A stretch of DNA of 51,704 nucleotides from Bacillota bacterium (GTDB lineage Bacteria > Bacillota > Limnochordia > DTU087): NCBI GenBank assembly GCA_012839845.1, contig DUMM01000020.1, positions 1 to 51,704 on the forward strand, in the 5' to 3' direction. The notes below the pieces were generated by a model. The model worked only from the letters and a program-made list of their open reading frames with translations. It was not told the DNA's origin and searched no databases. The translations under genes and the position numbers were made by a program. The first letter of the stretch is position 1; each line of letters opens with the position of its first letter. This document shows positions 17,213 through 39,846 of the stretch, piece after piece.

Positions 17213-17914
17213 TTGGCTGGAAGAAACCAGGAGCGCGATCTAGAATTAATCCGGCAGGTGAGGGCAGGGAACAGGAAGGCGCGGGAGGAACTGGTCACCA
17301 AGTATATCCCCATGGTCAAGCGTATTGCCCGCAATCACTACGCCAGTTTCTTAGAATTCGAGGACCTTATGCAGGAGGGCTTGATTGGCCTTTTGAGCGC
17401 CATTGAGGAGTACGATCCGGACAAGAAGGTGAAGTTTTCTTCCTTTGCGTATATCTGCATTTTGCGCAAGATCTACAACGTCATCAAGCACAGCAACGGC
17501 AACAAGCACAAGGCCTTGAATGATGCCGTGTCTATCTATGCCTTTGTCAATCCAGACGAGACCCGCACTGTGTTGGACTGCGTCCCCTTTGAGGATCCCT
17601 CACTGGATCCCGAGCAAGTTGTGGAGGAGCGGATAGTCAATCAAAGGCTCAAGTCTGTGCTGGAAAACCACCTGTCCGTTCTTGAATATACAGTCATTTC
17701 CCTGTTCCTGCAGGGTTACACAACTGCTGAGATCGAAGCCGCCATCGGTGTCAATGCCAAGGCGGTAGATAATGCCCGTACCCGGGTGCGGCTGAAGCTC
17801 AGGCGGATCTTGACGGAACACGGGTCCTTACTCAACCCTAAGGTGCCGGTACGGGTCCGGCGCCGGGAAGACCTGTATAGAAAGCTTCCCAAATTAGAGC
17901 TCCGGGCAGAATGA
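17213..17914 (+). CDS. sigma-70 family RNA polymerase sigma factor, SigH-like
   Basis: A 233-residue sigma factor with region 2 (about 20-95; FLEFEDLMQEGLIGLLSAIEEYDPDKKVKFSSFAYICI, the core-binding and -10 helix) and region 4 (about 145-205; LSVLEYTVISLFLQGYTTAEIEAAIGVNAKAVDNARTRVRLKLRR, the -35 helix-turn-helix). There is no region 1.1 or 3. The architecture and DNAR(T)RVR(L)KLRR end resemble sporulation SigH rather than ECF factors, but residues after region 2 differ from B. subtilis SigH. TTG 17213 has AAGGAGGGA upstream. It is flanked by terminators, so it is a separate unit set between rnc and smc, where sigma genes are not usual. Confidence 0.85.
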   Translation: MAGRNQERDLELIRQVRAGNRKAREELVTKYIPMVKRIARNHYASFLEFEDLMQEGLIGLLSAIEEYDPDKKVKFSSFAYICILRKIYNVIKHSNGNKHKALNDAVSIYAFVNPDETRTVLDCVPFEDPSLDPEQVVEERIVNQRLKSVLENHLSVLEYTVISLFLQGYTTAEIEAAIGVNAKAVDNARTRVRLKLRRILTEHGSLLNPKVPVRVRRREDLYRKLPKLELRAE

Positions 17915-37720: not shown

Positions 37721-39115
37721 ATGGCTGAACTGACACCGAGGGAGATAGTTGCTGAACTGGATAAATACATCGTCGGTCAGGATCAGGCCAAGAAAGCAGT
37801 CGCCATAGCGTTGAGGAACCGTTACCGGAGGAGGCTTCTTCCTGAGAAGCTGCGGGAAGAGTTTATGCCTAAGAACATCCTCATGATCGGCCCCACCGGT
37901 GTAGGGAAGACAGAAATTGCCCGGCGGTTAGCTCGCCTTGCCGATGCTCCCTTCATCAAGGTGGAAGCCACCAAGTTCACCGAAGTCGGTTATGTGGGGC
38001 GAGATGTTGAATCCATGGTCCGGGAACTGGTGGAAACCAGCATCCGCATGGTTAAGGTTGCAAAGATGGCCGAGGTTGCCGATGCGGCGGCAAAGAACGC
38101 GGAAGACCGCCTGGTGAGCATCTTGGTGCCCATGCCCGGGAGAGAAAGGAACTTCAACCCATTGGAGGTGTTCTTCGGCCCCCGCCGTGTCGACGAGACT
38201 TCAGAGTCCGCGGAGGCAGCTCAGAGGGAGGAAATCCGCCGACAAAGGGAGGCAGTGCGGGAGCGGTTGAGAAGGGGAGAATTGGACAGCCACCAGGTTG
38301 AGATTGAAGTTGAGGACAATACTCCGCCCATGCTGGAGGTGTTTACTGGCTCCGGTATGGAAGAGATGGGGATAAATTTGCAGGACATGTTCGGCAACTT
38401 ATTTCCCAAACGGGTTAAGAGGCGTAAAGTAAACATCAGAGAAGCGCTGCGGCTTCTGCAGCAGGAGGAAGCTCAGAAGCTGATCGACATGGATGAAGTA
38501 CAGGCAGAAGCCGTAGCAAAGGCGGAGAATGACGGAATTATCTTCCTAGATGAGATTGACAAAATCGTGTCTAAAGGCGGCGGTCAGGGCCCAGACGTTT
38601 CTCGGGAAGGTGTACAGCGGGATATTCTGCCTATTGTCGAGGGCTCTACGGTACTCACCAAATACGGACCAGTTAAGACCGACCACATCCTCTTCATCGC
38701 CGCAGGTGCCTTCCATACCAGCAAACCGTCTGACCTGATCCCAGAGCTTCAGGGACGTTTCCCCATGCGAGTGGAATTGTCGAGTCTAACGGAGAAGGAC
38801 TTTCGCCGCATCTTGACCGAACCGGAGAATGCTCTGATCAAGCAGTACACAGCTTTGCTGCAGACTGAAGGTGTTCAATTGGAGTTCACCGAGGAGGCAG
38901 TTGACAAGATCGCCGCTTATGCAGTCCTGATCAATGAAAGAACTGAGAACATCGGGGCTAGGAGACTGCATACAGTCCTGGAGCGAGTATTGGAGGACAT
39001 TTCCTTTGAAGCGCCGGAGAGGGCCGGTGAGCGGATAGTAATTGACGAAGAGTATGTCACCAGGCGCCTTGCGGATGTGGTGGAAGACCGGGACTTAAGT
39101 CGGTTTATTTTATAG
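37721..39115 (+). CDS. hslU: ATP-dependent protease ATPase subunit HslU (ClpY)
   Basis: A 464-residue AAA+ unfoldase partner of HslV. Walker A GPTGVGKT (57-64), the pore motif in [12 protein letters not shown] (about 88-99), an intermediate domain (about 110-235) and Walker [10 protein letters not shown] are present, with the C-terminal DLSRFIL that docks in HslV. The ATG at 37721 has GGGGGGAG upstream. In Bacillus codY follows; here the c-di-GMP riboswitch and flgB follow instead. Confidence 0.96.
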
Positions 39116-39218
39116 GAGGTAGGACAAAATTCCCTATCCCAAATTATGGGATAAAGTGATAGGAAAAAGAAGGAATTCTTGAAGGAATGTGGAAAAGCAT
39201 ATTCCGTATAGGTGTAAA

Positions 39219-39308
39219 CTATTGCAAAGGGCAAAACCATCGAAAGATGGTGACGCAAAGTCACGGGCCTACGGTCCTGAGGGACTATGGTAGCCGGACC
39301 GCCAATAG
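39219..39308 (+). promoter_or_regulatory. cyclic-di-GMP-I (GEMM-I) riboswitch aptamer
   Basis: Closed by P1 CTATTG (39219-39224)/CAATAG (39303-39308). The core follows the class: AAAGGGCAAAACC, a CCATCGAAAGATGG hairpin with GAAA tetraloop, GACGCAAAG, the ACGGGCC...GGTAGCC arm that holds the tetraloop receptor. The bases matching Vc2 G20 (39230), A47 (39257) and C92 (39302) are all conserved; G at the first argues for c-di-GMP over cGAMP. It leads the flagellar operon. About 100 bases between the hslU stop and P1 contain a TATCCCA/TGGGATA hairpin (39135-39153) and no promoter I could assign. Confidence 0.93.
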
Positions 39309-39336
39309 CCCATACACCAACAGAGATAATATCTTT

Positions 39337-39386
39337 GGGGTTCGGGTCTACTGGCGTCCCTGAGAGACCTTAACCCCTTTTTCCTT
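39337..39386 (+). terminator. riboswitch expression-platform terminator
   Basis: GGGGTT and GGTCT pair with AGACC and AACCCC across a loop, followed by TTTTTCCTT, so this is an intrinsic terminator before flgB. GGGTCTACTGG (39344-39354) can also pair with CCAATAGCCC (39302-39311), whose CCAATAG is the 3' strand of aptamer P1. The two pairings exclude each other: ligand-stabilised P1 frees the terminator, which predicts an OFF switch. Confidence 0.82.
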
Positions 39387-39435
39387 AATAGGAGATTGTG
39401 TGGGCTAGCACTTTCGACTGAGGGGAGGTATGGCG

Positions 39436-39846
39436 GTGGCCGGTCTCAATCTCCTGGGCAGGGTAGGCAGCTTGCTCGAGAGGGCTATGGATGCCGAAAG
39501 CCTGCGCTTCCAGGTAAGAGCCCATAACCTTGCCAATGTCAATACCCCTGGATACAAGCGACAGGATGTGGAATTTGAAGCTTACTTGGCAGCCGAGCTC
39601 AACGGCAAAGGCACCATTGGACTCCGAAAGACCCGCCTTCAGCATTTGAGCGGCAAGGGAAGCAGCGCAGCTCCCAGCATTGTGACGGATAACCGGACGA
39701 CCATGCGGCTGGACGGCAATAATGTGGATATCGAACAGGAGATGGTTGCCTTGACCGAAACGGCGGTTAGATATCAAATACTTGCTGAACAGCTCAGCAG
39801 GAAGATCAGGGAGCTGCGCACGGTGATCAGTGAGCGGGTAAGCTAG
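39436..39846 (+). CDS. flgB: flagellar basal-body rod protein FlgB
   Basis: A 136-residue proximal rod protein exported by the flagellar type III system. The N-terminal heptad region with AHNLANVNTPGYKR and the C-terminal helix (IEQEMVALTETAVRYQILAEQLSRK) are typical of rod proteins. The GTG at 39436 is preferred, with GGAGG 7 bases upstream; the ATG at 39430 directly abuts that site. It is the first gene after the riboswitch terminator. Confidence 0.94.
   Translation: MAGLNLLGRVGSLLERAMDAESLRFQVRAHNLANVNTPGYKRQDVEFEAYLAAELNGKGTIGLRKTRLQHLSGKGSSAAPSIVTDNRTTMRLDGNNVDIEQEMVALTETAVRYQILAEQLSRKIRELRTVISERVS

Follow-up and report, generated by a model that had tools for sequence, protein, structure and literature searches.

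An invertible flagellar switch is a feature of Clostridioides difficile. Upstream of its flgB operon the same species carries Cd1, a riboswitch that acts as a transcriptional OFF switch (PMC9262584, PMC6366702, PMC6200980), as do the class-I switches of C. difficile (PMC6200980). Four strands account for its two states: strand A pairs with strand P in the aptamer, T and H form the terminator, and A and T together form the antiterminator (PMC9262584). The pilM GEMM riboswitch of Geobacter metallireducens responds to cGAMP, works as an ON switch and has another strand order (PMC9262584). Here we describe an element found between hslU and flgB in the window, the whole stretch of 51,704 nucleotides (contig DUMM01000020.1) from a Bacillota bacterium of the class Limnochordia. 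Sequence comparison and RNA folding indicate that it is very probably a c-di-GMP-I riboswitch that acts on the flagellar operon as a transcriptional OFF switch. By its anatomy the element belongs to the known Cd1-type kind, and it leaves knowledge of the mechanism unchanged. It shares with Cd1 (Cdi-1-3) the aptamer class, the flgB operon as target, the P-A-T-H order and a transcription terminator, but differs in occurring in another lineage, at a junction after hslU and behind a predicted SigH-like promoter. The aptamer is homologous to that of pilM, whereas the predicted logic is opposite, the strand order is different and the ligand-contact position holds a G.

Features of the hslU-flgB junction and the start of the flagellar operon (positions in the window).
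Feature	Position	Strand	Details
SigH-like promoter AGGAATT-N13-GGAAA, predicted	39171-39195	+	predicted transcription start at about 39200-39205
P strand	39211-39224	+	P1 5' strand CTATTG 39219-39224; outer extension GGTGTA 39211-39216
c-di-GMP-I (GEMM-I) aptamer	39220-39306	+	RF01051, 84.8 bits; covariation over 8 relatives
A strand	39302-39318	+	P1 3' strand or antiterminator 5' strand; unliganded fold
T strand	39337-39355	+	terminator 5' arm and loop bases, or antiterminator 3' strand
Intrinsic terminator	39337-39382	+	stem 39337-39377, then TTTTT 39378-39382
flgB, first gene of the operon	39430-39846	+	TIGR01396; followed by flgC, fliE, fliF and fliG on the same strand

The junction opens at position 39115, where hslU ends, and leads to a flgB recognized at 116 bits (cut-off 59). 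An Rfam scan of the whole window returned the RF01051 aptamer as its sole match (E 2.2e-15), extending over the full length of the model (positions 1-87 of 87) and well above the gathering score of 35. This bears out the complete GEMM-I aptamer proposed in the preliminary description of this DNA, which had named an RF01051 search as the check. The conserved ligand bases proposed there are also in place, with a G at 39230, aligned to the ligand-contact base G20, and a conserved GCC at 39301-39303 in the C92 region, in what we take to be the numbering of the Vc2 structures. Close GEMM-I variants respond to other cyclic dinucleotides (PMC9262584), and one member of the source genome's family (G006) has a flgB aptamer, at locus L033, scored better by the variant RF03167 (c-di-GMP-I-GGC) than by RF01051. 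Sensing of such a dinucleotide, for instance 3',3'-cGAMP, is nevertheless very unlikely for the window aptamer, in which the base aligned to G20 takes the form associated with c-di-GMP and for which RF01051, rather than a variant, is the best model. We thus infer c-di-GMP as the ligand.

The window aptamer departs from the RF01051 consensus in a non-standard A-C pair at the base of P3 (39259/39300) and in the replacement of A by C within the tetraloop-receptor strand, which reads CCTACGG where most relatives have CCTAAGG. Such departures might betray a relic aptamer in a decayed, ligand-independent attenuator whose terminator acts alone. This is highly improbable given that the score ranks among the class's top RF01051 scores, that the aptamer is conserved in all sampled genomes of the family and that compensatory changes have occurred within it. 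Across the eight family leaders that could be aligned, compensatory change has kept helices P2 and P3, and all five pairs with two-sided changes in the combined aptamer and terminator lie within the aptamer. The covariation score was reached by none of 500 shuffles and slid controls scored far lower, with 96.6% of pairs being standard over aptamer and terminator combined. In the same eight relatives, the 12 pairs of the terminator are formed in 96.9% of cells.

Downstream of the aptamer lies a G+C-rich hairpin (pairs 39337-39342/39372-39377 and 39344-39349/39365-39370; -22.7 kcal/mol for the fold of 39320-39385). The intrinsic terminator placed 28 bases past P1 in the preliminary description is therefore confirmed in both its spacing and its hairpin. 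The two strings proposed there to pair, 39302-39311 and 39344-39354, were exact in their coordinates and form nine pairs in the unliganded fold. A is common to P1 and the antiterminator and T to the antiterminator and the terminator, giving the P-A-T-H order of Cd1 (PMC9262584) and substantiating the likeness to the C. difficile flgB switch that had been suggested.

Folds were computed with ViennaRNA, without tertiary contacts or ligand, and speak to the possibility of switching rather than to its occurrence. Left unconstrained, 39200-39384 has an optimum of -64.9 kcal/mol that contains the antiterminator (39301-39311/39344-39355 and 39314-39318/39338-39341). With the aptamer enforced, the optimum of -60.0 kcal/mol comprises P1, its outer extension and the complete terminator, the P strand being paired with 39303-39308 (inner) and 39313-39318 (outer extension). 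The comparison of the two folds called for earlier thus yields two mutually exclusive states with the antiterminator as the unliganded optimum, from which it follows that c-di-GMP should terminate transcription. The gap between these states is 2.3 kcal/mol as long as the T strand has yet to emerge, reaches a maximum of 12.6 kcal/mol for the transcript ending at 39370 and settles at 4.9 kcal/mol at full length. In folds of the growing transcript, the antiterminator takes over between 39354 and 39360, ahead of the terminator 3' arm, and ligand bound before emergence of the T strand could plausibly hold the aptamer/terminator state. The antiterminator duplex (-19.3 kcal/mol) is more stable than those formed by shuffles of the A strand (-11.2 ± 2.9 kcal/mol, s.d.; P about 0.01), and none of the 151 other 20-nt stretches in the leader does as well.

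GEMM aptamers that are almost identical can serve ON as well as OFF switches (PMC9262584), so that the direction is unreadable from the aptamer alone. An ON switch, in which c-di-GMP would prevent termination as pilM does with its own ligand, would require the P1 3' strand to sit inside the terminator; here it lies outside, which makes this arrangement most unlikely. Because the A strand takes part in P1 and also pairs with the terminator 5' arm, closure of P1 frees the terminator, and the predicted OFF direction is well supported by this anatomy. Under the OFF reading, transcription would begin near 39200 and, with c-di-GMP scarce, 39301-39318 would leave P1 to pair with 39338-39355, the resulting antiterminator blocking the terminator and letting polymerase read through into flgB. 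With c-di-GMP abundant, P1 would be held closed and the terminator 5' arm left free, the hairpin 39337-39377 would form and transcription would end at the T run. Also in favour of this reading, the source genome encodes four strong GGDEF genes. Translational control of flgB is not favoured, as some 40 bases separate the terminator from the likely Shine-Dalgarno sequence, gaggggaggt just upstream of 39430; the folds computed here extend as far as 39385.

The leader also holds a candidate promoter, predicted from its sequence. A SigH-like motif, matched against what we take to be the B. subtilis SigH consensus, starts at 39171, 49 bases upstream of the aptamer, and a search of 39050-39450 yielded no sigma-70-type promoter. 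In its strict form the motif has two matches on the forward strand of the window versus 0.28 expected, and 11 of the class's 115 aptamer leaders contain it, compared with a background rate of 0.0022 per 200 nt. Strict or relaxed, it precedes the aptamer by 40 to 67 bases in each of the 10 family leaders for which upstream sequence exists; these leaders are not independent of one another. The source genome encodes a SigH scoring 374 bits (NCBIfam cut-off 294.8). Three SigH-related genes in this genome score above 120 bits, and the window itself encodes a SigH relative of the sigma-70 family (17213-17914; 122 bits, below the same cut-off). We tentatively consider, at somewhat less than even odds, that SigH, the stationary-phase and sporulation factor, initiates transcription of the early flagellar operon, which c-di-GMP attenuation then gates. 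If so, the two layers would tie the decision to sporulate to that on motility within a single leader.

Within the family of the source genome, the aptamer lies directly upstream of flgB in all 11 sampled genomes, an arrangement that is thus fixed across one uncultured family and makes a cross-species comparison of the expression platform possible. The antiterminator duplex outperformed shuffles in eight of the 11 (P 0.005-0.06 each), and the same comparison found no antiterminator complementarity in G006, G007 and G010, so that the expression platform is not uniform in the family. G007 and G010 have a longer spacer. A search for an antiterminator common to these three genomes found none. G006, whose aptamer scores better with RF03167, also has no detectable CodY. 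Among the eight aligned relatives, no variation is seen in the six inner pairs of P1 or in the antiterminator core CC..UAG.C, so neither is backed by covariation, which is thereby ruled out as proof of the antiterminator; invariance is expected where one strand must pair with two partners. In G005, G008 and G009, TAGACC of the A strand can pair with GGTCTA, and the bulge that marks this duplex in the window's genus is missing. The terminator is already favoured in the full-length equilibrium fold of several relatives, which suggests that the switch logic depends on cotranscriptional timing.

The association also occurs beyond this family. Among 61 genomes (60 relatives plus that of the window), RF01051 matches are present in 49 and flgB in 59, and outside the family an aptamer precedes flgB in 8 of the remaining 48 sampled genomes of the class that carry flgB (G014, G023, G026, G034, G038, G042, G046 and G060). 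Of 80 named flgB loci, a sample biased by its selection through similarity, nine from several Bacillota lineages have a c-di-GMP-I type aptamer upstream: L033 (the same locus as that of G006), L034, L036, L039, L046, L047 (Carboxydocella thermautotrophica), L052 (Symbiobacterium thermophilum), L066 and L100. Two of these loci have tandem aptamers before flgB, with RF01051 followed by RF03167 in S. thermophilum (L052:2624-2916) and two RF01051 copies in a Syntrophomonadaceae metagenome-assembled genome (L100:2330-2721). On the FlgB tree, which is poorly resolved because the protein is too short, the aptamer label needs up to 11 changes versus 23.1 for shuffled labels, and well supported branches force at least two. 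The association is clustered and recurrent. A single origin is neither supported nor excluded by this tree. The suggestion of a wider or older pattern therefore holds in part for its width, whereas greater age is not borne out by the FlgB tree. We found no earlier report of the aptamer-flgB association outside C. difficile in the literature searched, which comprised papers other than the original GEMM ones. The shut-off design of C. difficile flagella, with a class-I riboswitch and terminator before flgB, appears to recur in distant anaerobic Bacillota, which would make Cd1 one instance of a recurrent design.

Contrary to the earlier statement that this genome is without codY, a CodY of 260 aa is encoded on a contig other than the window's (G000:C78:10554-11039, reverse strand; NF003170 at 255 bits, equal to its cut-off), codY being absent only from the hslU-flgB junction. 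A GGDEF (diguanylate cyclase) gene precedes codY by about 425 bases in the same orientation (L223:761-2781, G000:C78). Elsewhere in the genome, tandem c-di-GMP-I aptamers (L113:1251-1335 and 1448-1535; G000:C13:26150-26434) precede genes for a small protein whose N-terminus is signal-like and for a Wzz/GNVR chain-length protein. A terminator follows the first aptamer, and at the second TTTCTCC is able to pair with the Shine-Dalgarno sequence GGAGGAA, so that control of transcription may be layered with control of translation at this locus, which has a SigH-like element 119 bases upstream. Finally, a perfect inverted repeat (TATCCCA-N5-TGGGATA, 39132-39156) separates hslU from the flagellar leader and scores as terminator-like on the reverse strand; in relatives within the genus the same site is occupied by another inverted repeat.
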